Assembly: GCF_000264995.1 (NCBI RefSeq)
Contig: NW_006767444.1
Span: 1,056,560 to 1,080,021, forward strand
Source of the DNA: Punctularia strigosozonata HHB-11173 SS5
Lineage: Eukaryota > Basidiomycota > Agaricomycetes > Corticiales > Punctulariaceae
Direction: 5' to 3'
DNA: 23,462 bases
Part shown: positions 1 to 23,462 of the stretch, piece by piece
Position numbering within the stretch: position 1 is the first letter of the stretch
Layout: each line of letters begins with the position of its first letter
Program-made: the position numbers and the translations under genes
Notes under the pieces: generated by a model
What the model saw: only the letters and a program-made list of their open reading frames with translations
What the model was told of the DNA's origin: nothing
The model's database searches: none

Positions 1-1
1 T

Positions 2-924
2 ATGCACTGGACCCGCGACCCCACGGACAGGTCCGCTTTCGGACCACGGACTTGGCGTTATTTTGACGCGGATCTCGGTGAGCAAGGTCCCGCGTTTGCC
101 TTAGTGCTTTGTGCTTACGACGCCGCGTTTGCGCTCGGGGAACAGGTGAAGCTCAAGTGTTTGAACGTTCGGATAGGACGGAGCGTGGCGAAGGCAACAC
201 TTCGGGTGAGTAATGAGGAGTTCTCAGCGTTTGGCACAAGCTAACATAGTGCGATACAGAGTACGCATCTGTAGATGCCCTCGTAACACCTTGCGTCCCA
301 GGCGCGCATACCGTCATCGTACGGAGAGCGCGTCTTTGACGGAGGCTTTTCGTAAAGTAGTTTCCAGGAGGCAGCAAGCGTTGTCTGGATCAGACTCGAC
401 CTCCGGGGCGGCTTCTTCGCAGCTAATCACTATGGTGTTGGGCAAAGCGGGCGTAGTATTATATATGCGAAGAGTAACGGGCTCGCAGGGGCGTGAAATA
501 GATCAGCCTCAGGGCGAGAATTGTCTTCGCCCAAGAAAGCAGTGAGGATGGGGAGCTTCAGGTGAGTAAAATGTGAAGCTCCACAAACCGTAGGACTGAG
601 TTGGTTGCAGAATACGTGAGAGCGATCAAGCCATGGTCGGATAGCGATTGTAGGTACGTATAGGAGCCCTCGCCCAAGACCGAGCTCACGAGAGTTATCC
701 AACAGGGCACCGCATCGGCGTGGAACGAATCGTCTCGCGTCTGTCGCACACACGTTCGTTTCGGGCGGGAGACTCCCCTTTGGCTTGGATGCTCGAGAGC
801 CGCCCGCAGGGAGACAGGCGTTGACCTGGCTTGATGACTGTCTCAGGCGGTAAGGGCCTGGTAACCCCAAATAATCGTCGCCTTCCGATGTAAGCTCGAG
901 TTTGATGTCAGCTTTCGCAGCTAA
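2..924 (+). CDS. 3' part of an unknown spliced gene
   Basis: The family is not recognised. A chain of seven phase-compatible exons can be read: 2-205, 250-318, 368-492, 543-561, 601-653, 706-849 and 912-924, with TAA at 922-924. The best introns are 206-249 (GTGAGT donor, GCTAACATAG at the 3' end), 654-705 (GTACGT donor) and 850-911 (GTAAGG donor). The 39-nt intron 562-600 with a GAG acceptor is the weakest join. The first exon runs off the left edge, so an ATG at position 2 need not be the start. Recognisable pieces of the product are FAANHYGVG and ALTWLDDCLRR. No catalytic motif, signal peptide or membrane segment is visible. A simpler model stops at 337-339 without the later exons, but it would leave several frame-matched open segments unexplained. 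Confidence 0.5.
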
Positions 925-1298
925 CCATATCGGCTGTGTCGTTGCAGCGACGGTCTTTCGTTGGGAGGCGGGGTAAACTCGTGTAGTAAAATATTTATTG
1001 TGCTACATATCAGGGGGTTCCACTTCAGGGGCGATTGCAGGCAACGCTCCCATCCACTGGAAGGGAAAAATCCTAAGTAATAGGGCAATCACTGCGAGTG
1101 TCCCGTCTGGAAGTTCTTAATCGAACGTCATAAGGTTCGGAGAATCAGCGACGTAATATGCAGCAAGCCAGCCAATAAAAGGGACCACCCAGTTAGGGTC
1201 GGTCGTCCCACTTCTCCCTATACCACCATCGTGTGAGCAATAATATCTTGTAGCGTAACCGTGACCTCAATTGTCCAGCCATAGATAGTTCTTTCGTT
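925..1298. other. Intergenic region
   Basis: This is a 374-bp gap between two genes on the same strand. It contains an AT-rich stretch at about 984-1010, which would suit a 3' UTR or polyadenylation region of the upstream gene. The rest must hold the promoter of the gene starting at 1299. No open frame, repeat or RNA gene is convincing here. Confidence 0.5.
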
Positions 1299-4200
1299 AT
1301 GGCATCATCCTCGCGTTCGGCGGTATCTGCCACTTCACGGCCATCGGGAGCCGCCTCCCCAGCGCATTCCACTGCGACTCCTCGACCGTCGATATCAAAT
1401 ATTGAACTGGCTCTGGTGAGCGTTTTGCAGTTTTGGTCGGCCTTACGTCTCAATCCGCTGGATATAGGCTCGGTTACGCAGTATAATGGAGCCCATTGAT
1501 ACATGGGACAACGACGACACCGTCGACGTTCCCATCCGAATCGGTTTCGAAGACGAGGAAACAGGGCAGACAAGAACGGGAACAGCCTTTATTCCTCGCG
1601 ATGCCGGCGAGCGCAACTTCGTACCGGTGGCTCCTCCGTCTCGCCAGTGGTCAGTGGTGTACCCCGACTGGGATGAAACACCGCCCGACTGGGAGCAGGA
1701 TCGCTCGAGTCATGTGTCCGACGTGCGATTCGCTGGATATTTCAATCCGCCCTTCGAAAACTCCGTCGCCATCAGCGAATTCGGCACTCGCTCTTTGGGG
1801 CTTGATCCCTTCAGTGATGAAGCCGGTCTCGCGCGCGAAGAATATAATCGCAGGCGCACCGGAATCGTTTTTCAGCCAGAGCTACGGGATGTCGTGGATA
1901 ATCAGGGCATAATACGCAGGGATTCGTTTCATGGGGTGATCCCCTACAATCCGCGCCATCCCGTGGGCTTGGCATTCATGCACCGTGGCCCGCAGGTGTT
2001 GGACCTCCATCCCTGTTTCGCACCGATCTCCGGCATGCCCATCGTAGAGCGATGGGAAGACAATAGGAAATTCTACTACGCGGACAACGACCGTCTGACG
2101 GAGTGGTGGTACATCGCGGACGCACTTGTCAAGACCGAAATGTCGCTGGCTGGCCATCCTCAGGCCAGCAAAGCTCGCGTCGTCAGCGTGGACTATGTTC
2201 CGCTCCCTCGGCCGACAGAATTCAACCTGAAGAGGAGGTGGTGGTCTCGAGGAGCCGCCGAACGCGGTGTTCAGGAAGCCATGCGCGCGTTTTGGCCAAT
2301 GATAGCAGAAGTCACTTACTTGCTGGCGTTTCTCAAACGCACGCTCAGCGTCACGGACATCAAACATCATCTGCTCCTGACTTCTGAGCTCACGGCGGTA
2401 TGGATCGACCACCTGTTCACTTCAGAGGTTTTCGACGTGGCCGGTGTCCCACGCGCTGGATCATCCATGATCTGGGGGTCCACGGAGACGTACTCAACAA
2501 CTCTGGCTGCCGTCTTGCGGGCCTGGAATATCCCTTTCCAGGTTAGGTGGCCCGCCGCCGCTCGTCCCGAGGTATACAGATCGCTGCGCGCTACTCTCGG
2601 GTACGATGCGCCCACGCAGGAGGATATCGACCGGTTCGCAGCCACAAAGCGTGACTGTACATTGTGGCTGCCTCGCGTGCGACCAGAGCTCCGCATAGAG
2701 GATGAGGGAGGTGTCTTTGGCATCCGCTCCATGGAACAGTTTTTCAGGGAGCGTGTCCGTGAAGATCACCTGGTGGGGATTACATCCTCTTCTCTGGATC
2801 AAGAAGATGTGGACGTCGGGGGCACGGTTTTCACCGTGTTCCTATGGATGACAGATGGCGATTATCTGGTTCGCCATCGTATCCTACCTGCATATGCGAT
2901 GACAGTTCTCCGGGCTTACAAGTGGCACCACTTGTCGATCGATTGCCATCGTGCGGAATGCGACGTTTACGGAGGGTGGGGCGCGTCGCGGATGGTCTTG
3001 AACACCGGTCTCCCCCTGCGCCAGAACCTGCCGTCATCAGAACGGCAGGACGACTTTGTTGAAGAAGGCCCCATGGACTTCGGAGGTGTGCAGGATCCTT
3101 CCGAGGCTCTCGACCGCGACAACAGGTTCGGCTTTGATGTCACAGATATACAACGGCTCGATTCTGCCCGCGATGCGTTTTACGACCGAATCACTGACGT
3201 GCAGTACGGGCCCTTCCGAGATGTGCTGTCTCTGTCGATGTCTCTCCACGGGCTTCTCGGTCGATTGCAAGCACGATATGGCTGGCGCGCGGGACCTATC
3301 CATTATTGGACGCAAATCCATTGGAAGAACGAGAAGGGCCTGGACATGGTTCCCTATGACGCGCCAGCGCTCCTTCGAATTTATGGCAGCGTTTCCGGTT
3401 CTGATGATGCTACCGGCCTGTTGCGGGTGTCGGAAGGTTTCGATCAGGTTGCCGCTCTCCGTGACTTCACGCGCCACGTCGAGCTTCATGCTTCGGTGGA
3501 CGGAATCCCCCGAGATGTTCAAGATTGGCCCTCGCAGGTTGATCGCGGTGCACTGGGGGGAGTGCAGCTAACTCGACGCCAGCTGTCCTTCACTCGCGAG
3601 TTCGAGGACAGCGCCGGAGTCAGCCAGGGGAAGAGCCTCCCTCCGAACAATTGCATGGGCTATCTATTCAGCCTTTCGACTGCGAGGACAGGAGTCTCGT
3701 GCATCGTCGTGGATGAAGCACTCAATGCGATGCAAGCTGTCCGTTTCCTGAGGTGGGACGTACTTTCGCAAAAGCCGGACCCTCTGCAGTCGCTGGCAGA
3801 ACACTTCCTCCACAACGGCGTCCACTTCTGGACGGCTGAACGCAGCTTCTCGGGAACCATCAAGCGACGCGCGACGCGCTACAGTCTCCCGGTGCGCACT
3901 CACGCGTGGATTGGCAAAGCCACAAAGAAAGACTTCGTGGCATGGGAACATACTGTCAGTCGGTTTTTGACGACACCGCGCGCTAGGGCGGCTGCGCTTA
4001 CAGGAGGCGTCGTTTGGCGCATCGCCGTGGAGTACGGTCCTCCTGAGCTGCTCCGAGATGCTGCTCAAGGTCCGTCCCAAGACCGGTCGGGGTGGGGGGC
4101 GTTCGCGAAGGATAGTCGCGCTGGACGCTTTTACGATGATATACTGTCTCCGGAAGAGATGCAGTTGTTATGTGGGACGTACGTCGTCTTGGAAGGTGCG

Positions 4201-4699
4201 TTACAAGGATCGGTGGCGAATGCAATTCTTGGTTTCTCACAGGCTCATTCCAGCTCGCGGCAAAAGCTTCCAAGAAACGTTGTTATCTTGGTTTCCCCGC
4301 GCAAACAAGTATTGGCTGAACGGAGTGTGGACTCAAGCGGATGAAGATTGGTTCCGTGCCCACGTCGAGGCATGCCGCGCGGGCCAGCGACAGCCCCTCA
4401 AAACCTCCGTTTGGCACACCAAGCTGGCGTCCCGTACCACCCGCGCCGCTCGCATTTTCCGTCAGTTTGAGGCCCTGGCGCAGAGTTGCCTGCGGCAGTG
4501 GGCACCGGAAGATCCTTCGGAGCACCGCGACGCGGAAAGACGTGAGAAACCCGAAGGTAGTTCGGCGAGTCGTAGAGCGAATCGTCGTGGTGAGAGCGCC
4601 GAGACACGTAGCACAGGGCGGTCGCAGGATCAGGGTGAACATGGGACTCCAATCTCTCCTGGAACTTCACGCGTCAAAGGGAAGGGGAGAGCAAAGTAG
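1299..4699 (+). CDS. Large agaricomycete orphan-family protein, 1094 aa
   Basis: Exons are 1299-1415, 1468-4178 and 4243-4699. Intron 1 (1416-1467) has a GTGAGC donor and TATAG acceptor. Intron 2 (4179-4242) has a GTACGT donor and CTCACAG acceptor. The phases close exactly to 1095 codons. The continuous frame through 4344 is read-through of intron 2: the spliced product instead gains TLLSWFPR and EDWFRAHVE, which fit the C-terminus I remember from this family. The N-terminal 40 residues are Ser/Ala-rich and probably disordered. The middle is rich in Trp, Tyr and Asp without a known enzyme motif, and near the C-terminus are VVWRIAVEYG and LSPEEMQLLCG. The last 60 residues are Lys/Arg/Glu-rich, possibly a nuclear tail. 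I recall related 900-1100-aa proteins as multi-copy and uncharacterised in Agaricomycetes; the function is unknown. If the first intron is wrong, translation would start at the ATG at 1486. Confidence 0.8.
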
Positions 4700-4725
4700 T
4701 CGGATGTGTAAACTATGTCTTATTC

Positions 4726-5344
4726 CTATCTATTTCGCACATCACCGGAACGGGTTCCTGTCATAGCCATAACTCCTCCGAGAATCGACGGAGATGAGGA
4801 TGCATCCGTCGATAGCCCACAAATCTGGTCGTCGGCCATCAATGCGCGGCATAACGTTCCTACCGCGGATGGGACATACCTGCGGACGGCTTCGTCTGCG
4901 ACTGTTCCGTCTCCACTTCGCATGTTGACAGGCGCGCGGTCGCTCTGGTTCGATAGGCGCATTACGATAACATCGCCCTTATATCCTCGGCGGCAACCGC
5001 GCGGCAGGGCGAGGTTGATGGGTAGCCGTTTATGCCGGTTGAAAAATAGCAAGAAACGACGCTGCTGGCCCCTATAACGGAAGTGAATCACCACGTCGTG
5101 GACGTAGGGTTGGATTCTCGCGGAGTCCAAGGCTGTCTCGGGCATGGGATAGCGTCGTAATGAGTCTTGCCCTCGTTGCCGTACGAGGATTGGAACTCCT
5201 CTGGGCCTCATTTCGCTAGCGGCATACAAGCGGCCGCGCAATCGTAATTCTTTGGTCTACCATGTATGTCAGACGGTCTTCCATTCCAACATAATGCCGA
5301 CCAACCTGGTTAGAGGGAAGAATCGCTATGCGGTGTCGTCCCAT
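4726..5344 (-). CDS. Small basic orphan protein, 189 aa
   Basis: Exon 1 is 5306-5344 (MGRHRIAILPSNQ). Intron 5257-5305 is 49 nt with a GTTGGT donor, a CTGAC branch site and a TAG acceptor, and exon 2 is 4726-5256. The phase is 0 and the frame stays open for 190 codons. The core (about residues 65-130) has DVVIHFRYRG, RRFLLFFNRHKRLPINL and GDVIVMRLS, an alternation of beta-strand-like hydrophobic runs with basic turns, then APVNMRSGD and VRRYV. I recall a small family with a fast-evolving tail and this core in agaricomycete proteomes, never characterised. The Ser/Gly-rich C-terminus looks disordered. The 3' end lies 26 bp from the stop of the convergent upstream gene. The start is the ATG at 5344, because the longer open frame in exon 2 has only a TTG at its 5' side. 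Confidence 0.75.
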
Positions 5345-5608
5345 GGTTGATCTCAGTGTTGGGGAAGGAACCGAGGGTCCGTGGGTCCCCTTTGCACACG
5401 CTACATTATATCGATTTCTGGACAAAGTCGTGTGTCTGAAGCTCGTGGATCAGCACGAGGAGGGAGCACGGCGGGGTAGTCGACACCGTTCCTAGAACGT
5501 GTAGCGGAGTTTAGATTTGATGCCTGCGGGAATCCCACATGAAGGTAGCCATGTTCCCGATCAAAGGTTCCCGCTTGCCCGCCTCGTCGACCCCCTCGAG
5601 ATATCGCG
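5345..5608. promoter_or_regulatory. Short divergent intergenic region, probable shared promoter
   Basis: These 264 bp separate the start codons of the 189-aa gene (leftward) and the coiled-coil gene (rightward). A TATAAT box-like element on the minus strand at 5405-5410 lies about 60 bp upstream of the leftward ATG. No comparable element stands out for the rightward gene. A bidirectional promoter is inferred from spacing only. Confidence 0.35.
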
Positions 5609-8600
5609 ATGTCTGACGGGCATGTGCCGTCGAATGTTGCCGTGGCAAAACGACGTAGGCAAGATGACGACCTCGGACAGCGCGAACCTCTGCCTGTGGA
5701 CGTCGAAGAAGTGGTGGAGGTTTGTCCAGCTCGCTTCCGCCGCGCGGTGATGTTTGCTGAATTGTATAATTCTCCAGGGACTAAGGGAACAGATTGAATC
5801 GCTTCGTCAAACGATGGTTAAAATTAGTGATCCGAAAGAAAGAGATGCGATGGATGTGGTGACTGGCCGCCTTGTGACGGTGAACACGGCCTTATTCCGT
5901 GCTTGGGTGGACGCTGATTCTTCTCGACGTGCGTAATGCAGCAAGAAAAGCAGCTCTCTGATACTCGCCGACAACTTGCTGTCACTCAGCGGAACTTCGA
6001 AGAAACGCAGGCGAATCTTGCGCTCCGCACGGCCGAGTTAGACCAACTTGCCAGAGATCGCGAGTCCTTGTCGACCAAGGTACGTGTTGTGTATCTGGCG
6101 CGAGGTTTGGTTTGTGATGTTGGCCCCTAGTGTGAGAAATTGGAAGGAGAAATTGCAGCCGCTATGGGGACAAACACCCAGCTCAAACTGCAGCTCGTCG
6201 CCGTGCAAGAAAAACGTCCCTCGCGTGTGTCCGCAAGGGTGTCGCCATTACCTGTATTCAGCATCGACTCCACACCCTCTGCTTCGACGTCTTTTGTTGC
6301 CATGGATGAAGACGGGGAAGATACGCCGCCTACCCCTGTGGCAGGTGTACGGGGCCTCAGACGTGAGATGACTGAGGAAGAGCCTGCTCCGGAAAACATT
6401 CGCCGTGATCGCCGGGCTAAGGAACGCCTTCAGGAGGAGTTGGTTGCGTTGCGGGAACGATATCAGCGGTTGGAAGACGAGTATCGTAAGGCGGAGGAGA
6501 GGTCGCGTATGCTGCAGCAGGTGTGACGGTCGTCGCATTATTGACAGTTGAGGGTGCTAACCTCGCAACGTTGTTGGCCTAGAGTGGGGACAGGGCTGTC
6601 GAGAACGCTACAGCGGAGATGGCCACTCTCAAAGCACAATCTTCGAAGCAGTCAGAGCGGATGAGCATCCTGGAAACTGAATGTCAACGACTGCGAGTGC
6701 GTTTGTGTAGTTGTGATCGTCGTCATGAGAACTGACCCCCCTTCCCTCCCACAAAGGATCAGTTGCACGCCGCAGAGTCAGAGCAACAATCATTGCGACA
6801 ACAAGTAGAAGAACAGTCGCAAGCCGCAAACGAGAATCAGAATGTCGCATTTTCCGCACAGGAAGAGATGGTGAAAGCAAATAGGGTAAGAGCTTTGCTC
6901 TGTGGATGTTTCCCTCCGTTCATTGCTTGATGCAGGAAATCGCGAGTTTACGCTCGCAACTTAATGGAGTTTCGACACAGCTGCAGCGAATCCAGGCCGA
7001 CGCTGATATCGTGGTCTCGGTAAGCGTATACAGGTCATGGCTCCTGCATCGAAGTTGACGGTGTATGTCAGGAACGCGACGACCTGCGAAGACAGGTGAT
7101 GGCTGCGCGTCACGAACGAGATGCGGCCGAGGAAAAACTCGCTGGCTTGGACCAGCAGTTCAGCGAGCTACAGGCAAATCTAGGTCGTTGGGAAGCGGAA
7201 GGGTCCCGTGAATTGGCTAGCCTGAAAGAAGCCTTAGAGAAGGAGTCACAGAAAGTCGGTGAACTCAAAAGGGAACTCGAAGTCAGCGCGGCCGAGTATA
7301 ACCGTCTCAAAAGTGAGCACTGCCATCGTTTGTGAAGATCGGCAGCAGTGTTTAAAGTATTCTTAGATTCTCTTGAACGAGGGGATGAGACTGCGCGATC
7401 GAAAGTTCAACAGCACAAAGATCAGCTCGCGGAACTCCGATGTGCGTCTTGCAGTACCGCATTAAACTTTGTGTCCCTGATTGTATGATATAGCTGAACA
7501 TGAAGCCTTATCAGCTCAATTCCACAATGTTCAACGTGCGGAGCAGGAAGCCCAGAATCGCATAAATGAACTCATAGCTCGGCACGCCGAGGAGCTTTCG
7601 AAGGTGGAGGATGAGCACGTGACGAAAGAAAAGAAACTGGAAGAAGAATACCGTGCGGCCAATGCAGAATTGTTATCGCAGATTGCTATCCTCCAGAGAC
7701 GCAGCGACGACTCGGACATCGAACGGAACCAGCTGTTGGCCGATGCGACAGCAGAACGTGACCAATTGCGAGCAGATATAGAGAAAGAGCGTATCCAATT
7801 ACGGACCCAGATGGAGGAGGAGCGCGCTCGATTGCAAGGGGAGATGGAGAACGAGCGTACCCAATCACGGACAGATATGGAGGAGGAGCAAAACCGATTG
7901 CAGAAGAAGATGAACGAGTGCGCCCAACTGCAAAACGACCTGGAGGAGGAGTGCACCTGGTTGCGCACTGAGATGAAGAACTTATCCGATCAATGTGCAT
8001 TGAGCGTAGCCAATATCCATGCAGCGCACGAAGACGAAACCAAACAGCTTGTTGCTAGCCACGAAGCCACGCTTAACGAGTTGCGCGAGCAGCTTGCAGA
8101 GGCCCGTGGTGCCCTGGACGATGTTCGTGAAGTGGATGCATTCCTCGGAAACAGCAGCTTGATGGACTTGGTAAAGTGAATTGGCCTCGTTATGTTCTGT
8201 TCCTCACGCTGTACGCAGGACGATCCCGAGGACGATCCCGTGCCGACCACCACGAGCAGGCCTGTAATGTCCGATGGTTCGCAAACAATCGAGACACGCG
8301 ACAGAGGTGGTCCCGATGACGTGAACTTGCCGCCGAGCAGTAGTTCGCGGCTACTCGATGCTTTGGACAATTCGCGACGCACCAACCAGGAGGCATTGCT
8401 CGAAATCAAGGGACGCTTGCTGGCGTTGGTCGATGACACACAAGACATGAAAGAGCGTAGTCGGGAAGTGCAGGAGACGTTAGTTCGGAATGGAGAACTG
8501 CACGAAGTGCGTTGCACGATTCCGACGATCTTTCCACGATCCTCACACCGAATGGTCAGAGCTTACAGCGTGTTACCAAACTATTTGAAGCTACACAGCG

Positions 8601-11003
8601 CGAGCGTGACAGATACGTCGAAAAATTAATGAAAGCTGAAGACGAACGCGCGCAAGCGCAGAAGGTGAGCAAGTGGCAGGGATCCTTGCCATGCAACACT
8701 TGAACCTGTCCTGTAGGAACGAAATGACATGATGGAAGAGGCGCGAGTGGCGAAGGAGGCGCTGAACGCGGCTCGCGCGGAGCTGGCAGCAGCAGAAAAG
8801 GCTCTTAAGAAGGCAAAGGAGGACTTGAAGGAGGCGAAGAACGAAGCGCGAATGGCGGAGCAGGAGCTGAAAGACATGGCGATTGAGGACGATCGGTACA
8901 TTGAGAGGGAGGAACTTATGGCTTCGATAGCGCAAATACGTGATATGGTCATGCGGACCAAGGAGGCGCTCGTTGGCCGAAGCCCTTCCCCACCTGATAT
9001 AGACGACGAAACGGTTGCGGTGGTCGATCTTCCCGGAGGACGAAATCGGTCCGAAGAGATGGAAACGATCGCAAACTGTCAGCCTATGGCGCTTGTTCTT
9101 GACGGGCTCGTCGTTAGTCATTCGATGTCACGGTGTGGTTCATACTGACATCGTCATTTCAGGAGTTCCTGAAGGATGCCGCGGCAGGCCTTCCAGCTGC
9201 AAATGTCTCTTTGGGCGGTGGTAAGGGCAAGGGAAGAGAGTCCGATCCCTTGTTCAAGCCGGTCTTATCACCTATTGGCGAGGAGATGACATCAACGACG
9301 CCTCTTGGAAGCCCGCAAAACATTGTTCTTCCGCATGATATCCCGTCCTCAAGCGCCTCGGCAGGCCCAAATGTCGTTGCCGCAAAATTCACGACGACGA
9401 CTCCCGTCGCTCCAGTTTTTGGTCCGCCCTTGGACGGTTCAGAGGCCCCTCCTGCTGTTCCGAGGACTCCAGTCGACCTCCAACTTAACATACCAAGGAC
9501 ACCCCCTCGAGCAAGGACATTTTCCCCAGCCAGTGAATTGAGCCGCGACGACGCTCAGACCGTGATCAGGATGGTCTCCATCAAACCAAGTCGGATCTTG
9601 CCAAAGACTCAGTTGTTTGCGTCGCTGGTGAGTAGCTCTCGTTATGCTTTACGCCTTGAATCCTGAACAAGCCCACCGTGCAGCCGACTCCACCATCGGC
9701 GAAGGAAAAAAAGAAAGTTCGTCGCAGTACTCCGACGCGGAGTGCTTCACGGAGGGGCTCGTCTGCACCCAGCAGGGCGCCTTCTATCAGCCTGTCTGAC
9801 CGACCGCACCGCTCGAAATCCATCGAGCGCGAGGATAGCGAGGAAGACGGAAGTCTGGGTGAAGACGAAGATGACGAGGATATGAGAACCCTGACGCAGA
9901 AGCTCGAGCATGAGAAGGCTGCCGTGCCCAAAGAAGCAAGACGGCGTCATACGGTCAGGAAATATGGTATCGTGTTTCGAGAGTTGTTCTGATAGCCGCC
10001 TCTTCAGCATTATGTCAAACACGCCGTTCACAAGGTCTTCAATATCAAAGAAGACCTCGCCATAGTGGGAATTCAAAACATTTCTGAAGAAGACATGCGC
10101 ATCTTCATGGACAGCGATGGTCATGAAGGCGGTCCCACCGAAGAGCGACTGGTTCCGGATCTCGCCACGCTCGACTCGTTGTGGAATAGGCGATGGCTTG
10201 AGCTGATGGTTAACAAAACCCGTGACTTCTTCCACTACGAAGGGGCCCCGCCTGAAGATATTCGGAGCAACGAGTACTGGGCGGACATTGCGTGGACACG
10301 GCTTGGAACCCTTCAAACTATCTGGCGCAAGCGGAGACTTCGTACGGACCCCGAAACTGGAAAGCAGGAGACGGTGGAGGAAGCCGTGAAACGTATAGCG
10401 GATGAGAGGTCAAGGGAAGCTAAAGCGCGCAGGCATTACAACCTGCGTAAGGCGGTATGTAATCCATTGGTCAGTCATCGCGCAGTGCTGACAAGGAAAC
10501 AGAAATATGAAAGAAGGTTGAAGGCCGCTGATCAGATAGTCGAAGCTCGCAAAGACGCTCCTGACGTGGAAAGCTGGCGGTTCATCCGACGAATGATCGA
10601 CTTGTACGGTCCACAGGGGATGAGCTCGGAGGACAGTGGAGGCGAGGACTCGGATGCCGATAGCGACCAGGGGGGAAGGGATTCCGACCCGATACAAGCA
10701 AAGGTGTTCACAGTCAAGTGCAATCCGTGGCGCAGAGACATCGAGACTGAATTGGGGGCGCTGGAGAAAATGCACGCGATGCTGGAGCAACCGAAAAGGA
10801 GCCAAGGCAGAGCTCAAGCGCCACGCGAAAGGCCTCCTCTCGAGGAACGCAAGTTGAGCAAGAGACCAGCAGTCCCTGGCTTGCCGCGCTCCTATTACTC
10901 AGACGATTGGTTTGAGAGCCTTTCCGTTGGCAGGAAGAGCGTGGTTCGTGCCAAGCTAGGGAAATCAGATGAGAAATGGCCTCGCTTCACGTTCGTTGAG
11001 TAG
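5609..11003 (+). CDS. Long coiled-coil protein with C-terminal GMSSED/GLPRSYY domain, about 1510 aa
   Basis: Seventeen exons join in phase: 5609-5719, 5778-5879, 5942-6079, 6131-6520, 6583-6696, 6757-6885, 6936-7019, 7072-7312, 7367-7441, 7494-8170, 8219-8506, 8560-8664, 8717-9112, 9163-9627, 9684-9953, 10008-10454 and 10503-11003. The second donor (5874, 5880 or 5907) and the one near 9954 are less sure. The N-terminus has a basic AKRRR patch, a possible nuclear signal. Residues about 38-950 are mostly coiled coil, including a hendecad repeat and the Ala/Lys-rich segment around ELAAAEKALKKAKEDL. A Pro/Ser-rich linker carries SPSPPD and PRTPVDL. The C-terminal third is a separate domain with KYERRL, GMSSED, an acidic run, CNPWRRDIE and GLPRSYYSDDWFESL. 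I remember that order of motifs from a large multi-copy agaricomycete family of unknown function. The sum suggests a nuclear or chromatin-linked scaffold, which is inference. Confidence 0.8.
7754..7981 (+). repeat. 33-bp in-frame repeat coding an 11-residue (hendecad) coiled coil
   Basis: Seven tandem units lie inside exon 10 of the coiled-coil gene, at 7754, 7787, 7820, 7853, 7886, 7919 (30 bp only) and 7949. Units read like ERDQLRADIEK, ERIQLRTQMEE and ERARLQGEMEN, consensus ER-x-x-L-R/Q-x-x-M-E-E/N. Units 2+3 resemble 4+5 more than they resemble each other, so a 66-bp pair was probably duplicated. Hendecads form weakly right-handed coiled coils, unlike the heptads expected on either side. 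Confidence 0.85.
10455..10502 (+). other. In-frame intron of 48 nt with no stop
   Basis: Within the last open frame of the coiled-coil gene lies a near-ideal intron: donor GTATGT, branch site GCTGAC, acceptor AACAG. It is 48 nt, a multiple of three, and has no stop in frame, so both spliced and unspliced mRNA encode full-length protein. Splicing joins the HYNLRKA and KYERRL segments, the arrangement I recall for the family. The retained form would add 16 residues. Confidence 0.75.
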
Positions 11004-11073
11004 AACTGTAATGCATACAGATTTATATCGGGGACCCTCGTCGAACTGCAGTTCTCAGAGCAGGAACAAGGAA

Positions 11074-11835
11074 TTAAGTCGCGCATCTGCGCACTTTTGC
11101 ATCCTCAGTCTTCGATTTGTCCTGGTGCCAATCCTCCTCAAACTTCGAATATCGCTCGTCCAGCATCTTCCCCTCCCACTGCGCCGGCCTTCCCATCCCG
11201 TGAAACAGTCTCATTGCCATAACACCGGTCATGGACTTGGCCCAACGGGGCACTGTGGCCCACTCCTTCGGAACGATGCACTGGCACACCGGCTCCGTTG
11301 GGGCAGGGACGTCCGGGTGACCATACTCCACCATAGGACTGTCAATCTCGAACACGACGAACTTTCTGCTGACCCCTACGATCCTCATGACCTCCCCGGT
11401 GGTGACGCGTCTTGCAATGCCGTCCTGGAGTTTCAAGGTGCTCCCGATTTCGATGCGCGGGATATTCTTTCCCTCGTTTCTGGCAAGCTTCCATCTACGT
11501 CGTGCTACCACCCTGGCTTGGAGATATCCTTCGACTGCCACAGGAAATTGACGTGAGAACGAAGGCGTCCGGCACATTGCCAGCGTAAGCTTACGAGGTG
11601 CCGAGGGTGGAGACTCGTTCTCGACGTTGACGTCGGCAATCGGATCCGGCTCGGGGACAGCCTCGGTAGCAATATCCGTGGGCGTGGGTCCAATGTGGGT
11701 ACTGCCGGGCACGGGTTCGTCGGGCCTGAGCGGGTCCGCAGAAGCACGAGTGGGAGTACGAAGCAAGTGGGGTAAGACGGGATCGCCCGCGTCTTGCGCG
11801 AAGTTGGGGTGAGATTGTGACCTGCGGGTGTTCAT
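11074..11835 (-). CDS. Single-exon orphan protein, 253 aa
   Basis: An ATG at 11835 opens 254 codons with no need for an intron. The first 85 residues are Pro/Thr/Arg-rich and probably disordered. The folded part starts around YLQARVVARRRWKLARN and continues through IEIGSTLKLQDGIARR, GEVMRIVGVSRKFVVFEID and CIVPKEWATVPRWAKS. The pattern of short beta strands with a charged helix could be a small SH3- or KOW-like fold, but no family was recognised and this is only an impression. The end is Lys/Asp/Glu-rich. The stop is 70 bp from the stop of the convergent coiled-coil gene, so the two transcripts likely overlap at their 3' ends. Confidence 0.7.
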   Translation of the reverse strand: MNTRRSQSHPNFAQDAGDPVLPHLLRTPTRASADPLRPDEPVPGSTHIGPTPTDIATEAVPEPDPIADVNVENESPPSAPRKLTLAMCRTPSFSRQFPVAVEGYLQARVVARRRWKLARNEGKNIPRIEIGSTLKLQDGIARRVTTGEVMRIVGVSRKFVVFEIDSPMVEYGHPDVPAPTEPVCQCIVPKEWATVPRWAKSMTGVMAMRLFHGMGRPAQWEGKMLDERYSKFEEDWHQDKSKTEDAKVRRCAT

Positions 11836-13956: not shown

Positions 13957-14382
13957 AAGCTGCGTGCGCACATGTATGTCTGCCTTGTATTCTACCCATG
14001 TCCTTTGCCTGTATTTGTCGGATTGAGCTGAGGTTTCAAGGTTGTGTTTTCATGGCGTACCAGAATGTATCTGCAGTTAGTCTAGCTTCTCCCGTGGCCG
14101 TAGCAGGCCAACATGTATTTCCATTTGCAGATACAGTCTATCGAGGCCAGCCGGTGTGCCCCGTGTTGAACCAGCCGTGATCCCACCGTCCGCTCTGAGT
14201 GTTGAGGCAGTTTATGGGTATGCCACGCACGTCCTTCAGAGACCGCGTCAGATACCGTGTGGACAAATGTTTAACTGAGGGACACTTGCAGCGAGTGCAC
14301 TGCTGCATTGCAATTTTAATACATATTAACGACCGTAGCTTCCGAAGGCTCGTTGCATTGACGGTAAAAGAACACTCTCGCT
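13957..14382. other. Intergenic region between convergent genes
   Basis: This 426-bp gap lies between the 3' ends of two genes that point toward each other. It should contain both 3' UTRs. The open frames here are short and cross no plausible exon junction. No repeat, RNA gene or inverted repeat was recognised. Confidence 0.45.
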
Positions 14383-15433
14383 TCATACCAACTCCACCTC
14401 CGGGAACAGTTGGCCGTCGGGCCCCTCAACAAAGCTACCAAATGCCCTGTTCCAGTCCTCTTGCGCTTCCCGGAGGCTATCAAAACCTTTATAGCGAGCG
14501 CGACTTACGTTCTCCACCATACGATAACATGCCTCCCTATCAAAGATGGGTCAGGCTGGAAAGCTGAAGGAGGGGGAACGCGCACCAAGAGTTGACGACA
14601 CCGACATCGCGACCGCGGTAAACGACGTAGTAGGCATAACGACGGCGACGTCCGCGATGGACCCGGCGGACAGTGCTGCCGGGGGTGGACGAGTGAAGCG
14701 CCCCTGCGGATGACCTGAGACGAGACCGATTAAGGAATCGATCGAGCAAGTCAGAGTCATCGGCGCACCAATCTTTGACAAGTGCGCGGGTGGGCGCAGC
14801 AGAACCGGGATCACTCCAAGCGACTACATATCCCCTTGCTCGCTCGCCTTGGGATGCGTTGGAGCCAAGCGAAGGGCCAGGGTCCGACGGACGACCAGGG
14901 GGGTTCCCTCCTCGCCAAGCGCTTCTTTCCTGTACCTTAGAAGTGGCTGCCCGCGTTGGCGGTGGATTTGTAGTCACGATGGCTTGAGGAGCTTCGGCAG
15001 GCATAGGCGCTGACAGGTGGTTTACTGAGGGCGTGCCCGACGAACCAACGTCGTACGGCGGAGGCGGGTCTGTCTTGTCCCTCTCTCGGGTACGAGAGAC
15101 TGCGTGCTCGGATCTGGACGCTCGAGGGGACATCGAAGAAGAGTCGTCTCGGGGATGTTTTGGAGGTGGAGAGGAGACCACCACTTTGCCCGCGAGGACG
15201 AGTGCGGTCAGATTTATTGAGCTATCCAGAACCCAATCGGGCAGCGGCTCGCATTGGGACCAAAGTTCCTCGTCCTCGTCCTCGATGTGACCTTCATCGT
15301 CCTCATCCTCGCTGGAATCGTTGTTGTGTTCGCGATATTTCTCCTTGTCGCTGGGAACCCTCATCGTGGAAGATCTAGAGGATCTGACAATCAGACCTGA
15401 AGTCAAGGCAGACTTAGATAACAGCCTGTCCAT
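14383..15433 (-). CDS. Protein with C-terminal RNase H1 N-terminal / viroplasmin-like domain, about 333 aa
   Basis: Exon 1 ends at 14586, the intron is 14537-14585 (49 nt; donor GTGCGC, branch CCTGACC, acceptor TAG) and exon 2 is 14383-14536. Splicing restores a compact domain at residues about 268-314: YYVVYRGRDVGVVNSW, then a Trp-Glu junction, RYKGFDSLREAQEDWNRAF. This is the small RNA/DNA-hybrid-binding fold found at the N-terminus of eukaryotic RNase H1 and in caulimovirus viroplasmin. No RNase H catalytic domain follows; the protein ends 19 residues later. The first two thirds are Ser/Pro/Asp-rich and disordered, with an acidic run around SSEDEDDEGH, a PPPPY motif and a basic RRVHRGRRRR patch just before the domain. 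The start is uncertain: ATG at 15433 or 15364. Genes with this domain at the C-terminus are, as I recall, multi-copy in Agaricomycetes. Its role in binding RNA:DNA hybrids is inferred. Confidence 0.8.
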
Positions 15434-15667: not shown

Positions 15668-17726
15668 CTAGACCTGTGGCTGCGGAGGATCAACGGCACA
15701 GCCAGCTGAGAACCCAACCTTCCGAAGGAGCCAGAAACCGTACATCCTCCAATCCTCGTAGTTGTCCGCGTCGAAAGGTTTGTCCCTACATAGCAGAAGG
15801 CACAACCCTTTTAGGCCAGCATTGTCGACGTTGTGGAACTCCAGGTGACCCCGCATTGCAAGCAGCACGATCACTCGCGCGGCACCGGACAATCGACGGA
15901 GTTCGTCCCCGGTCACTCCCTGCATGATGAGATGATAAGTGGTCTCCGTGGCGCCGTCGATATGGAACCAAGTCCACATATATGGGTTGACGCGGGCGGG
16001 CAGCTCGCGTTGGGGTCGCTGACGTATCGGCCCCCTCGCCGGCTTGGGTCTTCTGCGCTCTTCCCTTGCCATCAGCCCGGCCTTGAATCTCTCGAAGAGG
16101 TCCGGGAAAAGGAAATAGTATAATATTAAGAGTTGGAGCTGGGCGTAAGGTGGGTTCCGAGGACTGGTGGGGGGACCACCCTCGTCATCCGAAAGGGGCA
16201 TCACCGCGTTGATGAAGACGAGGACCTCATATATAGGAACGTCCATGAAAATGCCAAGGTACGTGTCCGTGTTATACGTGTGGGCGTCGAAGAGATCGGC
16301 AGCCTCGCTCTTGATTTTGCATCGCACGTCCACCGTCTGCAGCAGTTTCTGTCTCCATTCAACGGACTTCGACCGGACGCCTGGCTTGAACGGGAAGTAG
16401 TAACAATCCTCCTCTACCACAAAGAGGTAGGGTCGTTCGGGGGGCGGAAAGATGGGATCAGGCAATGGGTAATCCTTTGATGGTTTGAGGCTAGCCAGCT
16501 CCTGCAATAAAGCAAACTGACGCTGCCTCGCCAGCTGGAGCGGAGATAGCGCCGGCTCTGACTGGGCATCGGGCTCCAGGTCCTCTGCTTGTTCCGTCTC
16601 GGGGGCGGCCATCTCGACGTCGGGATCACCAGGGCTGGTCAGCCGCTCGGCAGGAGCGCCCTGGTGTTGGCTCAAGGAGTCCTCGACCGGCTTAGAGCGG
16701 TCTGCATAATTGCTTGTGGAGCGAGCAGAATCGTCCACGATCATGTTATGGTCCTCTTCCTCGCACAGATCGATGATGGACCGCGCCGGAGAACCGCGCG
16801 GGTTCACAGAGGTATCCTTCTTCTTCTCCAGCGGCAGTGCATCCTGGGTCTGCGCTAGGGCGCCCACGCCGGTGCCGCTGCGTGAAGGAACAAGGCGGGG
16901 TGGGTCGATAACCTCTACGTCGTCATCGTCCGATATGACGATGACCTCCGGTTCCGGTGTGTCGGACTCCTGCTCATCATCTGGAAGGAACAGAGGCTCA
17001 ACACGTTTGCGATCCGCCGGCATATGCTCCACCACGTTTGGAGCGGTGGGCTCCTCCGGCGTTCGCACACGTTCGATGCGCGAAGAGTTCGCGATATCCT
17101 GCTGAATCTTCAGAATTGGAGATGTGAAGCGATACGAACCGTCTCACCGGTGCACGCGCTACTTCGTCCTCCCCCTCGTCTTTCTGAGACTTGTGCGGGG
17201 CTTCATCCTGTATACGCATCAGTAAATACCAGTGCTGATGCACATTGGAACGTACCGACGGCCCACGGAACTTTCGGCCGCGCTTTCTGGCACGACGCAC
17301 TTGCGCTTGAGCCTCAGCATAGGTCCTCACCAGGTCTTCTGACGGTCCAGGACATTCCTCGGTCGCGGAGAACACGGAGTCGGGGATCAAACGCAGATCG
17401 GCTACGTGACGCTTTGCTAATTTTTTCACATCTTGCCATCGTCTTCGCTCCGTCTCCAGAGCGGCCATATCTTCTGGTAGCTTCCCGAGTTTGCCGGCCC
17501 TCGTCGAAAGCCACCACAGAGCCTCCGTTTGCTGCTCACCCGGGTAGAAGCGGCGCATGTCCTGCAGCGCTTCTATCATTGCATACTTTGCGATATCCCC
17601 TGAGTTGGCGGCCTCGTGGTCCTTGCGCGCGGCGTCCACCGTGAACGGCAGATCTGCTAACGCACGCCACGACGGTGGGTATCCGATGGGTTTGCGCGAC
17701 TCGTGTCTGTTCAGCGGGCCCGACAT
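15668..17726 (-). CDS. Nuclear-type orphan protein with SUMO-interaction-like motifs, 669 aa
   Basis: Exon 1 is 17148-17726, the intron is 17099-17147 (donor GTGAGA, acceptor CAG; a CAG three bases earlier is possible) and exon 2 is 15668-17098. Both exons are whole numbers of codons. The start is the ATG at 17726, with G at -3; upstream of it the same frame offers only a TTG. Residues 1-190 are helical and charged, with RRARKRGRKFRGP as a strong nuclear-localisation-like patch. Residues about 240-310 are acidic and carry EVIVISDDDDVEVI and SIIDLCEEED, both fitting the hydrophobic-core-plus-acid pattern of SUMO-interaction motifs. The C-terminal folded part has RPYLFVVEEDCYYFPF, YMWTWFHIDGATETTYHLIM and YGFWLLRKVGF. 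No known domain was recognised. It lies 234 bp upstream of the RNase-H1N-domain gene on the same strand, and is divergent from the transposase gene. Confidence 0.75.
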
Positions 17727-18096
17727 GGCTACGTTTCGATGGTTATCATCCAATCCCTTGGCATTGACATATCTAGAAGCGCTTACCTGTGATGAATCGT
17801 TGGGCGTGTGTTTGACCTACTGACAGATCGTGGAGGCAAGAAGCAAGAAGGATCCGGTGTGCCTCGTGAACCCTGCATGGTGCCACCTAGTGAACTCCCA
17901 CGCTCCCACGGAGCGTCTAGGTTTAATCAAGCTGCACACGGTGGGGCAGCTGTAGGCGAGTTGCCTTGTTGGGGCAAAAACATTGCGAGCGCGCGTCCAA
18001 TAGCAAAAGCGAAAGCAATTCTGCGTTCCGCTCAGATAGCCGAATTCGGGATTCAAGTAGCTAGCGCTACCCCTGACAAGTTGATTGCAGGCGAAC
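17727..18096. promoter_or_regulatory. Divergent region upstream of the transposase gene
   Basis: The 370 bp lie between the leftward 669-aa gene and the rightward transposase gene. At 18071-18090 there is a CTGAC branch site followed by TTGCAG, a good intron 3' end just before the transposase ATG. A 5' non-coding exon or a short N-terminal exon may therefore lie here; candidate donors do not single one out. I looked for a CACTA-type terminal sequence and saw none. Confidence 0.4.
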
Positions 18097-21000
18097 ATGC
18101 TCGACATGAACGATGACTCGCCCCCCCAAACGCCTGACCGCGAAGCTGAGGACGATGCCTTGATCGATTCCATCGCTGCCCAGGCCGTTCAAGATGGCCT
18201 TCTGGGGGACGAAGGGGAGGAGTACCTGACATTGACGAACGCGCGACCGGGACCGTCCTTCGCAGAGCTGGCTGCATCGCTATCTAAAGCTGCGGCGCCG
18301 GAGCCCCATTCCCCAAAGGCTCCAAATATGACGGCGACTGGGGTGAAGCAGCAAATGAAAGGGACGGCGGAAAAACGGGCCCAAGCAGGATGGGCTGCTA
18401 TATCCAAAGAGTTCGAAACGATGAATGACCGTCTTCGTGCTCGGTCAAGTTTGAACCCTTCGGAGCTCCGCCACCTCAGACAAGAACTGTTCGGGATGCG
18501 GGAAAAGATTGACCGTATGAAAACGATGGGGGGGAAGGGGGTCAAACCTTTACGAATACTAGCTGAGAAAACGTACGAAAGGCTCGTGCAAGATCTGAAC
18601 ACGTACCGTGTCTCCAGGGAAGACGTCGACATGTACGATGGAACTGCAGAGGCTTCTTCCAGTGCCTTGTCTGGAGCGTCAGCTGCACCCTTTGAGGTAT
18701 ACAACACCGGTAAGGAACCACTTCCTGCTCATTTCATCGACCATGAGCTCACCGTGAGTACCCAGAGCACATGTTCCAGTACGAGTTGAACTCCCGCAAG
18801 CCGGTAGTTCAAGTTATTCTCTTCGCAGCCATTGCGGGACATGTCTTCGCGAACGCCGGATTAAGGCTTTGCAACCTCATCTTAAACTTGCTCCCTCTCA
18901 TACTCAGGGCGAACTTTGAAGAGGTCGGAGGAGACAAAACGGCGCAAGAAAACATCTTGGACGATATCCCAAAGACCATAGAGACCGTCCTAAAGCAATT
19001 TCATCTCACGTCGCCATCTACGGTGATAGCCATTTGCCCAGACCCACACTGCCAACAAACATATGCGCCGGATGAGTCGCAGTCATATCCCTCTCATTGT
19101 TCCCACCGTCGGTTTCCAGCTGCTGATATATGTGACAAGCCTCTGCTGAAGCCCAGCAAAAGAGGCGGAACCAAGCCCCAAAGGCCTATGCTATTCTGGA
19201 ACTTCGAAGAGTACCTCGCAATGCTGTTCTCAAGACCGGATTTCGAGTCCGCAATCGACCGCTTTGCGGACGAAGCATGCGCCGCCGCCGCCATACCGCG
19301 GAAGCAAGAGTGGTCGCATGTGTACGACGGAGAGTTCCTAAGAACGTTCAAAGGGCCCGATGGCGATTCCCAATTCTTGCATCGCTCTGGGTCAGAAGCC
19401 CGAGTACTGTTTGCATTATTCTACGACGGGTTCAACCTCGAGAGAAACACCGTCGGAGGCGAGTCGGCAACATGGGGTATCATAAGCTTGAAATGCGTCT
19501 CCCTGCCGATCGAGGTGCAGAATCTGCACGACAACATGCACATATCAATGTTGATTCCGCCATTCAAGGGGGAACCCGGCCAGGATGTGATCGACAACTA
19601 TCTGCGCCTGCTCGTCGAGATCTTCATTCGAGGCTGGGAAAGGGGTATCCGCCTCAGCAGAACGGCGCATTATCCCGACGGACGCAACGTTGTCTTCGCA
19701 TTGATCTATGCTGTCGCGGATTTGAAGGCGCGCGTCAAGGTTGCTGGAGTACAAGATCACGCAGCGCACCGTTGCGGCGGCATATGCGACTGCGTGGGGA
19801 GCGACACGCACAGAAGATTCGACTACAGCTCGTGGAGGCCCCTGACTGTGGACGAGATGAAAGACCGGGCGGCGAGGTGGAGGACAGAGAGCACCGCATC
19901 CGGACGGCAGAAAGCGTTCCGAACTAACGGTGCTCGCGATAGCATTATGTATCGACTGCCGTATTGGAACCCGGTGCGCCAAGTCGTCATAGACCCCATG
20001 CACGCTGCAAAAAACCTCGCGGATTTCATGTCTGGGCAAATCTTGCATTTGACCGAAGACGCTCCAAGGCTAACCAAGATCGTGGACTTGGGATTTGATT
20101 TCAAACCAGCTGAAGAGGCACTAGAAGCTGAAACGTCAGCCATCCGGAACGCAAAGGACTTGAGGCTGCTGAAGGACATTCACGCTATCCAAATGCATCT
20201 GCAAACTGGCACGGCGATCACGGATCGTGAAGGTCGTATAAGATTCCTTAACGAATGTCAAGAAGCCATCGCCAAGCGGTCCGTGAAGGCCTTGCGCTTT
20301 GTATGCGATGACGTTGGGACGAAGCCGATGAAAAACCGACCGTGGATTGAAGGGTCCGCCGACTACGCGGAGGGGCGTGATGTGACTGCTCGGTCTCTGG
20401 CAAACGGATTGATATTTTGGGTGGGTACGCAGTGCCCACACGCGATGATATGTTGCTGAACAAACATAGCGTTCATCAAGGTCAATGGCGCTGCCTCCCC
20501 GACCGCCGCCTACGAGCGACGACGACGTGAAAGCTCGGATCCGGCAGGTCATAACACAAACAGACATCCCTTCCTGGTTCCAGAAACCGCCGGCGAGATT
20601 CGGGGAGAAGGGCGTCGGCGCCATCAAAAGCTCGGAATGGCGAAATCTGTACACCCTCCACATCCCTTTCGCACTCATCAGTTTATGGTCGAAGAATGCG
20701 AACCCTGCTCTCAAGATGACATACCTCAAACAACACCCTGAGTCGCAAGACAATTACACCGACATCCTGGTCACCACCATGCACTTGGTATCCGCGCTCT
20801 TTCTGATGAACAAGCGCGTGCAATCTGAACGAACGGCGGACGCCTATCGCAAACACTTGGCCGATTGGTACGAGGCGATCCAACGCATCTGGACGGGCGT
20901 AAAGGCCAAGCAGAATTGCCACGCCGCTTTTCACGTGTGGGACTTCCTACAACTATTCGGGCCAGCGGCGTTCTGGTGGTGTTATTCCTTCGAACGACTG

Positions 21001-21793
21001 ATAGGACATCTTGAACGCCTTCCCCACAATCATACTAAACGTTAGTTGAAAATCATGCTGCGAATTGTGATCTAACCTACCAAGTACAGTGGAGGCGGAG
21101 CAGACCATTACTCAAGCGTTCATTCTAGGGTGCAAGACCCGTCATTGGTTATCCAGGCCTGACTGTCCTCAAGCCATAAAGGAGTGCAAGAGGCTGTACA
21201 ATAAAGCATATCGAAAAAGGAGTGTCCTGAACGATGACGAAGGTCTTGAGCCGCTGCCTTCCAAGGGGACACAGGGCCCAAAGATGGAACTGCCGATGGA
21301 AATAGCCATCGCTTTGCCCTTCAACAGTGCGCCAACCAAGGCGCACCTCACTGTGAACGGCATAGTGTATTCTCGAGCCGAGACGCACACCGGCAATAGC
21401 CTGGTGATGTACAGAATGGGTGATTTGGTGCAATATGGATCGATCCAGGTCATCTTCTGGCACCCAGGCGGCGCGTGGAAATGTGCAGTGAAGCGCCAAC
21501 TCCCGGCTGCAGACACGATTGCGAACATCTACGGCTTATTCGAGGATTATCCGGCCACCACCCTTTCCAACTCCTGGGTGGAACAACCCGATATTATCGA
21601 TCCTGGCGACATTCTTGGTCATTATGCGCGGTGGGAAATGACAGATGACGTCTCTGTAGTTCTTCCCCTACGGAAGGTCGGGCAAGCAACCCTTCGACTT
21701 TCGTGCAAAACATCTGACGAACCACACAGGAGTGACGCTCACGCGAGCCATCAATTATTGAAAGTATACAGAGAGGGCGCGAGTCAGCTATGA
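18097..21793 (+). CDS. Tnp2-family (CACTA/CMC) DNA transposase, about 1183 aa
   Basis: Exons are 18097-18753, 18801-20420, 20470-21040 and 21090-21793. The introns are 47, 49 and 49 nt with donors GTGAGT, GTGGGT and GTTAGT; the last two have clear branch sites (TGCTGAAC, TCTAACC). The joined frame is open for 1184 codons. The N-terminal 220 residues are a variable helical region. A Cys/His cluster follows at about 298-330 (CPDPHC, then SHCSH and ICDKPL), as in agaricomycete Tnp2 proteins. The catalytic core has LFYDGFN (Asp about 428), SRTAHYPDGR, a second Cys/His group (HRCGGICDC), RLPYWNPVR and VIDPMHAAKNL (Asp about 617). The third exon has FLQLFGPAAFWW and SFERLIGHLER. The last exon has the family's tail, GSIQVIF and DILGHYARWE. 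Both Asp motifs and the FER segment are present, so it may be active. It would cut and rejoin element ends in the nucleus. Confidence 0.88.
18097..21793 (+). mobile_element. CMC/Tnp2 DNA transposon, termini not located
   Basis: The transposase gene shows that a class II element is present, but no terminal inverted repeat or target-site duplication was recognised by eye, so the limits given are only those of the coding region. Neighbouring genes are packed against it on both sides: a 370-bp gap on the left and an overlap on the right. The element therefore either carries neighbours as cargo or has lost its ends. Confidence 0.55.
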
Positions 21794-23462
21794 GTCGGGT
21801 TGGAGGTCGAATCCATCGGCGTCACAATATGTATGTCTGACGTCCATGTAATCCTCCGGCGTGAATCCCAAGATATTTGGAGGCAATCCTGGCAAAAATT
21901 CCACCGTCGCCATCTGCTCTTCATGACGGGACATAGGATGCAAGGTGCGTCGTATCTCCGCAAGAAGGAACTGCAGCCCCTTTGTCTTCTCGAGACACAG
22001 CGGGACGGCGAGGGGCCAGTTGGTAGGAAAAGGGACGGTCGAAGATGTGGGATCTTCCGCGAAAGCGTCGTGAAGCGTCCCAGGCATATAGTGAAGCCTG
22101 TCTTCCAGACCCCGAGGACGGCGGCCGCGAGCGGCTACCCGGTGTCCATGGAAGGCCATCTTGAATTTGTACACTGTACGAGTCCAGTGAGTTCACGGTG
22201 GCTTGAAAGTACGCAAACTATGGAACACTAACGCAAGGTGCCAATTTGAAAGGAAAGCGAATAACATTCGATTTGACTTCTGCGCCCCATTGCCTTGTAT
22301 TCACCATCCGGTCCAAGACGTTCCCGGCCAATGAGAAACACGCCAAAGAATCGCAACTGAGCCCACACAGACGTCTCCAAGGCGACGGATTCCGACAGGC
22401 CTCTATTCAGAGGCCACCACATGCCCAAGTTTGCGCCGACGAGACGCTCCGCCCTCATCACGCGCCTATGCAGATCGTCCTGTCGCTGTATGGCATCGTT
22501 CAATCGATGTTGGCGTCGGATCGGTGATCGAGTTCGTCGACTAGGGCGAGCGGATGGCTCTCCGTCGGGCTCCTGACATCGGCGCGCCGAAGCCATGTCG
22601 ACGGTGAAGTTGATTCCAGGCGCCCGTGGCAAACGGAGAGTCGATCCAATGTTTGCAACGACTTGCTGAATATCCGCGAACAGGGTGGCACCCTCGTTAT
22701 TAGGGCCCATGGCGCACCACTTGTCCTGGTCATAAGGGTGCATCAGGCTCATATCCTGAGTCTGGGGCTCTCCCTTAAAGAAGCGATGCAGAGCATGCGG
22801 ACGATATTGAACGACCCATCGACACTTCTCGCGATCAACACTTTCATCTGGGTCGATGAGGCAGACGGTAAATTGCAGGCCTGAAAAGAGCTGTGAGCAG
22901 CGAACGGCGGAGAAAACAGCCACGAAACGCACTAAGCTGGTATACGTGGTCTGTGTAAACAAACACTATTTCAATGGTCGTCTTGTCCTCGTCGTCTGGG
23001 TCCGGTGCCCGCAGTATCCAGCCTTTGGCCACGAAGTTGGTGATCGACTCGTGCAAGACAAGGAGTTGTTGAATTTCTCTCGTCGTGATCGGACCATCGC
23101 TCAAGGGCTGTCTGTGAACGAGTGTCAATAGCACGTCAAACACGAGGGACGAGATAACATACGCGTCAAGAAAATACGTCGGTGACAGACCAGGGAGCAT
23201 GACAATGACTTCGTAAGAGCGGCGAAGGAAACAGTGACTGTTTGAGAACGGGGCAATGTAGCGGAAGGGACGTGTGGCAGGTCCCGGTACGACTTGCAGG
23301 CGAGAGGGAAGGCGACAGCAAAACGGGGAGCCCTGGCAGCGACGTCCCTTGCAGGCCCCACTCTGCACAAAACATGCGTTGCGCCCTGACTGCGGAAGTC
23401 CCTTTCAAACACGAGGTGATGCATGAGGTCGAAACGTTGTAGCATGTGGCACACGAGGCAAC
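21788..23462 (-). CDS. Unknown spliced gene overlapping the transposase 3' end, 5' end beyond window
   Basis: Reading leftward, the exons are 23294-23462 (partial), 22946-23237, 22233-22890 and 21788-22173, with TAG at 21788-21790. The introns are 56, 55 and 59 nt; the last uses the GTTAGT donor also seen in the transposase gene. All phases agree and at least 500 codons are open. Visible pieces are a hydrophobic FLDAYVISSLVFDVLLTLV segment, FTVCLIDPDESVDREKCRW, an Arg/Ser-rich stretch around RPSRRTRSPIRRQHR, and near the end FGFT-like LGFTPEDYMDVRHTY. No family was recognised. The first join (23238-23293) is the least certain, since another frame is also open there. The stop abuts the transposase stop, and the two coding regions overlap by 6 bp. 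It may be a partner gene of the transposon or an older host neighbour. Confidence 0.6.

Follow-up and report, generated by a model that had tools for sequence, protein, structure and literature searches.

Gene content of the window and a collinear block on C18

The window analysed here is a stretch of 23,462 nucleotides from Punctularia strigosozonata HHB-11173 SS5 (contig NW_006767444.1, hereafter C12, plus strand, C12:1056560-1080021), and its last base (23462) is also the last base of the contig. Long open reading frames extend over the window and fit about ten spliced genes, including one for a Tnp2 transposase. As argued below, the window is very probably most of one copy of a giant cut-and-paste transposon of the EnSpm/CACTA type. 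The features are given below in window coordinates. Exon limits are approximate, several having been set by eye, and gene placement was guided by the comparison with contig C18, using genomic sequence only.

1-1299, no strand: expected region of the inner part of the left terminal repeat of the window element, placed from the C18 layout only
1300-4699, + strand: gene A, main exon frame of 958 amino acids (aa), about 1094 aa according to an earlier note on this DNA; first exon and start set by eye
4726-5350, - strand: G2, small very basic protein, 176-aa frame with a computed isoelectric point of 11.6; upstream limit approximate
5609-11003, + strand: G3, multi-exon coiled-coil protein with GMSSED in its last large exon; could be two genes
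11074-11835, - strand: G4, orphan protein of ~250 aa, start at 11835
12312-13956, + strand: G5, orphan protein, not in the C18 copy; start set by eye
14380-15364, - strand: G6, RNase-H1N-like protein (PF01693, weak, E=0.16), not in the C18 copy; lower limit approximate
15668-17726, - strand: G7, orphan protein, start at 17726
18097-21793, + strand: Tnp2 transposase gene, from PF02992 and C18 homology
21788-22159, - strand: G9a, small orphan protein, from its C18 match
22228-23462, - strand: G9b, orphan protein, from its C18 match; runs to the contig end

The earlier note, made from the letters of the window, had described a gene-dense block of multi-copy orphan families beside an apparently intact Tnp2 transposase. 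This description was confirmed in part: the long frames agree with about ten genes, the GMSSED string is present at window position 10617 and the basic protein corresponds to G2. The RNase-H1N assignment, by contrast, was weak, and the families proved only modestly multi-copy. Counting the window, the genome (33.57 Mb in 32 contigs) contains at least three loci for gene A and for the GMSSED part, at least four for the RNase-H1N-like protein and at least five for the basic protein. All genome-wide locus counts are lower bounds, and the genome-wide protein searches left out G4, G5, G9a and G9b. None of the 25 distinct window frames scanned, that of Tnp2 included, passed the Pfam cut-off; G3, for which part of the exons was scanned, gave weak coiled-coil matches only. 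Gene A had no match in Pfam, PDB sequences or PHROGs, and seven window proteins had no match in PHROGs, a collection of prokaryotic viruses only.

Eight of the ten genes were matched at C18:360299-380406, with order and relative orientation kept, when the window was compared by tblastx with C18:340001-390000. This place is non-syntenic to the window locus. Tnp2 was the best conserved gene of the block (1074 aa at 70% identity). Gene A was matched at 44% mean amino-acid identity, G2 over 149 aa at 60%, G3 over 544 aa (42%, seven pieces), G4 over 105 aa (48%, three pieces), G7 over 342 aa (47%, five pieces), G9a over 70 aa (41%, one piece) and G9b over 234 aa (42%, three pieces). In the genome-wide protein search, the gene A paralogue at C18:377692-380406 was 42% identical and its frame was open. 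G5 and G6 had no match in C18:340001-390000. A control tblastx against 50 kb of contig C15 (21.6 kb of it left out) and 30 kb of contig C1 gave G5-G6 matches only, with the sole exception of one 17-residue match on C15. The recurrence of homologues in the same order at a non-syntenic locus, which the earlier note had proposed to look for, was therefore observed for the eight genes found on C18, hereafter the backbone, with G5 and G6 (12.3-15.4 kb) outside the shared block.

Ends of the C18 element and further copies

Self-comparison of C18 revealed inverted arms at 354249-356722 and 380784-382921 (spans of ~2.5 and ~2.1 kb). They were 99.5% identical over 423 nt and 96.9% identical over 485 nt in the compared parts, the comparison leaving out 1537 and 1177 nt of arm interiors. 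Both ends read CACAGGGAATTTTTTG inward, giving CACAG...CTGTG termini, and GAA lies directly outside the element on each side as a 3-bp target-site duplication. From end to end the element measures 28.7 kb. The CAC..GTG termini (CACAGGGA) were seen at both C18 ends and at one end on contig C11; in the window copy they are outside the view. Fungal EnSpm elements are described with CAC..GTG ends and 3-bp duplications (Kojima, 2025, PMC12730594). The C18 copy is a DNA transposon of the EnSpm/CACTA type with a Tnp2 transposase.

The boundary sequence recurs elsewhere. In a genome search, the terminal 423 bases were matched from base 1 at C11:233178-233598 (69%) and at C3:680412-680830 (82%), and the C18/C11 alignment likewise reaches no further than this base. 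Common outer ends, inverted repeats and a target-site duplication, all named in the earlier note as features to look for, were thus found in the C18 arms, in the terminus shared by C18, C11 and C3, and in the duplicated GAA. The motif AAATAG or its complement CTATTT, which was picked by eye after viewing the sequence, occurs seven times within the first 250 nt in C18 and likewise in C11; shuffles gave means of 0.43 and 0.55, and 0 of 500 in each case reached seven.

In the window itself, the inverted repeats found were two chance-like pairs (24-25 nt, 79-80%), with none by BLAST, and the C18 terminal motif had 12 matches with up to three mismatches versus 17 expected. In C18 the inner end of the arm lies ~380 nt ahead of the aligned start of gene A; a genome search with window positions 1-1300 returned the self match only. 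No telomere repeat was found on C12 among the repeats listed, nor in its terminal 500 bases, and the contig end was therefore taken as an assembly break. The subtelomeric location offered by the earlier note as an alternative was rejected on this ground.

A third copy, on C11, comprises gene A and G2 at 227.8-231.5 kb, one G3 exon at 219.2-219.6 kb, the end of G3 at 199.5 kb (C11:199502) and G7 at 195.4 kb (C11:195384-196040). These genes, at least four of the backbone, have the same order and relative orientation as in the window. Gene A and G2 are broken, with a stop in two of the three pieces of the gene A paralogue (C11:228730-231513) and a stop in G2 when aligned with G2 of C18. The C11 copy is a decayed third copy with one matching end. 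For C3, no match was among those listed in the protein searches with gene A, Tnp2, G2, G3, G6, G7 and a frame adjoining the WD40-type frame of C18 (see below), so the end copy at C3:680412-680830 may be short and is a possible non-autonomous derivative.

These copies bear on the idea that a single element is only mimicked by unrelated transposons and orphan genes piled into one another. G5-G6 indeed have separate relatives at C15, C1 and C6, the C1 and C15 loci are repeat mosaics and the C11 copy carries a 7-kb insertion. However, eight genes keep their order and orientation in two diverged copies and at least four do so in a third, which a random pile would not do, and we consider such a pile very improbable.

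Three minor features were observed around these ends and copies. The 7-kb insertion in the C11 copy (C11:220057-227024) has an apparent 5-bp duplicated target and is possibly a long terminal repeat retrotransposon. In the terminal region, 159 bp lie in opposite orientation in the C11 and C18 copies (C11:233366-233524 and C18:354323-354481), within a partly palindromic stretch. Finally, an outer inverted-repeat pair flanks the C18 element (C18:352434-353757 and 385036-386398, 67% over 1.38 kb).

Transposase, selection and G2 as a possible partner

PF02992 (Tnp2/Transposase_21), found on the large Tnp2 exon (E=3.6e-6, 26.8 bits), was the sole Pfam match of weight, and Tnp2 had no match among PDB sequences. 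Candidate catalytic residues are the D in YDGFN (19422), the D in VADLK (19713) and the E in FERLIG (20989), assigned to the triad by eye from family motifs. The D of YDGFN and the E of FERLIG are identical in C18, and the second D stands in VADLK/AADLK. The string HAAFH lies directly ahead of the E in both copies. The transposase of the earlier note was confirmed by its candidate D, D and E and its PF02992 match, the latter slightly below the Pfam cut-off. Relatives of Transposase_21 have been reported in Coprinopsis and Phanerochaete (PMC1636069). A Plavaka or KDZ element was also considered and rejected: the only transposase match in the frames scanned was PF02992, and the ends are CACAG, not the TGT or CATCA given for Plavaka (PMC12730594).

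Purifying selection acts on the main Tnp2 exon: over 466 codons compared between window and C18, the nonsynonymous rate (dN) was 0.145 and the synonymous rate (dS) 3.7, near saturation, giving a dN/dS of ~0.04. The same comparison gave 0.09 for the last exon of G3 (201 codons, one stop in C18) and 0.32 for G7 (142 codons); in the remaining window/C18 comparisons silent sites were saturated. Between C18 and C11, dN/dS was 0.35 for gene A and 0.91 for one G3 exon (no sign of selection), which is what one would expect when one of the two copies is decaying. The window/C18 ratios, together with near-saturated silent sites, indicate that the two copies diverged long ago and mostly preserved their reading frames. 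Such frames fit a lineage that kept moving; a recent jump is not shown.

G2 relatives were also found at C5:1127891 and C1:492375, each with one stop, ~5 kb (C5) and ~7 kb (C1) edge to edge from distant Tnp2 genes (C5:1121630 and C1:499391, 30% identical). With seven Tnp2 loci in 33.6 Mb, the chance that two of two G2 relatives lie within 8 kb of a Tnp2 gene is ~1 in 100,000 by post hoc arithmetic. Because of this proximity, G2 seems to have accompanied Tnp2 elements for a long time; it is a possible DNA-binding helper.

Selection and gene content could also be read as an ordinary host gene cluster copied by segmental duplication, with Tnp2 inside it by chance. Purifying selection where silent change is measurable, and the lack of any mobile-element domain besides Tnp2 in the frames scanned, would suit such a cluster. 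It would nevertheless have to accommodate a C18 block that sits inside inverted arms with a duplication, a boundary sequence that recurs at C11 and C3, a transposase that is the best conserved gene and G2 relatives close to other Tnp2 genes. We find this explanation very improbable.

A probable giant EnSpm/CACTA element, its proposed mechanism and its possible cargo

That these genes are carried together by a giant element, as the earlier note had suggested, is supported by the collinearity of eight of the ten between inverted arms on C18. The same note had envisaged a new kind of element; we rate it instead as an unusually large variant of the known superfamily EnSpm/CACTA. Several points weigh against assigning the window to such an element. 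Its own copy has both ends out of view, the right side being beyond the contig end, and a single genome was compared, with no empty site or other strain seen. Apart from Tnp2, the C12 and C18 genes agree poorly (six at 41-48% identity, G2 at 60%), and recent movement is therefore not shown; the end of G3 on C18 has stops in read-through, from introns or decay. The inverted-repeat evidence covers 423 + 485 nt rather than the whole arm length. The duplication is one case, from the one copy with both ends seen, and a 3-bp match arises by chance in 1 of 64. Tnp2 was not among the matches listed on C11, where C11:210001-218655 was outside the search. The PF02992 score lies just under the Pfam cut-off of 28.6 bits. 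Lastly, the clade motif between the second D and the E is C(2)C + H(3-4)H (PMC12730594), versus a C(3)C pair, CGGIC, here, and neither copy shows a C(2)C in the two exons searched.

If the window were an integrated DNA virus, or an element of viral type (Polinton-like or Teratorn-like), that uses a Tnp2 transposase, this would account for the size, the gene density, the long inverted arms and the fact that most proteins are without known match. Polinton/Maverick elements carry genes for a protein-primed DNA polymerase, an integrase and capsid proteins. With E values of 1 or less accepted, the 25 window frames scanned gave no Pfam match to such a polymerase, integrase or capsid, nor did any capsid, DNA polymerase or packaging domain exceed the Pfam cut-off in them. 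The only viral name was Herpes_UL25 (E=0.52), a coiled-coil match among 15 weak ones, and gene A and the Tnp2 exon had no relative in IMG/VR, in a scan that reaches close relatives only. A viral origin is in our view highly improbable.

Among known systems, fungal EnSpm/CACTA elements share the EnSpm-type transposase, the CAC..GTG ends and the 3-bp duplication; the present element differs by its 28.7 kb, about eight conserved genes plus passengers, kilobase arms and C(3)C pair (PMC12730594). Some EnSpm elements contain a TET/JBP gene of the PE type, which is barely recognisable by sequence (PMC12730594). No TET/JBP gene was found by Pfam in the frames scanned, and one orphan gene could still encode a TET/JBP-type enzyme, since the PE type is so hard to recognise. 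Enlarged En/Spm elements of the red alga Chondrus crispus (16-20 kb, four to five open reading frames, as cited in Arkhipova and Yushenova, 2019, PMC6431247) are likewise oversized CACTA elements with several extra frames, but they are smaller, have fewer genes and belong to another kingdom. The 20.5-kb soybean CACTA element Tgmt* resembles ours in its size class, tnp2 frame, 3-bp duplication and subterminal repeats, whereas its inverted ends are 13 bp and its transposition functions lie in one large gene, with no multi-gene backbone (PMC2613891). Starships, of which eight were reported in the basidiomycete Tremella fuciformis, are also large fungal elements with many genes, but they depend on a tyrosine-recombinase captain, in contrast to the Tnp2 DDE transposase found here (PMC13066641). 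Among the open-licence papers listed in our literature searches, which did not extend to Repbase, none dealt with a multi-gene giant CACTA element of Agaricomycetes. The Starship captain is a tyrosine recombinase of the DUF3435 type, for which the 25 window frames gave no Pfam match at E up to 1.

For the giant EnSpm/CACTA element, the Tnp2 protein, a DDE transposase, would cut at the CACAG ends and integrate the element at sites staggered by 3 bp. Plant En/Spm has a second protein, TnpA, that binds to subterminal repeats. The AAATAG cluster suggests the same need here, with G2 or G3 as best candidates: the basic G2, the coiled-coil G3 or both may bind the motif that recurs close to the ends and help or regulate transposition, like TnpA. 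More generally, we infer that some of the seven other backbone genes assist transposition. The kilobase arms may keep the ends paired, or may be a product of repair and gene conversion. DNA transposition reportedly becomes less efficient the further apart the ends lie (PMC6431247), which makes a 28.7-kb DDE element with kilobase arms a test case for the role of the extra proteins.

A broader proposal, which we find possible while leaning somewhat against it, is a self-contained lineage of giant basidiomycete DDE transposons, a CACTA-based counterpart of Starships, with an eight-gene backbone, kilobase inverted ends and exchangeable cargo slots (between G4 and G7, filled by G5-G6, and at the right end, filled by a WD40-type gene). 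The seven non-transposase genes would serve as helpers or in self-protection, and the lineage would be able to move gene blocks, perhaps between fungi. Annotation would log these genes as hypothetical proteins at scattered places; should they form the backbone of a single mobile element, this could explain several orphan families together. Helitrons are reportedly already among the known gene-carrying elements of basidiomycetes. The set of such elements would then be wider, this one standing beside Helitrons, TET/JBP-carrying DNA transposons (PMC12730594) and Starships (PMC13066641).

G5-G6 in the window copy and the WD40-type gene in the C18 copy may be variable passengers. Close to the right end of the C18 element, one frame has Pfam matches to WD40-type propellers (best PF23743, E=3.4e-5, below the cut-off). 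The neighbouring frame, which presumably belongs to the same gene, has a single relative elsewhere among the matches listed (C14, 60%); the gene was possibly captured from the host. G5-G6 occur together at C15:412721-414736 (82-86% DNA identity), and G6 relatives lie at C15, C6:1904174 and C1:520775-521090. The pair can be explained either as passengers or as the insertion of an independent unit between G4 and G7. The view of C15 as another copy of the entire block was rejected: in the part compared only G5-G6 match, up to 414736, where another repeat starts. The C15 copy of G5-G6 has a ~0.5-kb insertion (C15:413098-413609) that recurs on C1 and C18 and is probably a short mobile element. Further along C15, inverted arms at 420443-420907 and 436268-436734, 99.6% identical, surround a 15-kb stretch that may be another large inverted-repeat element.

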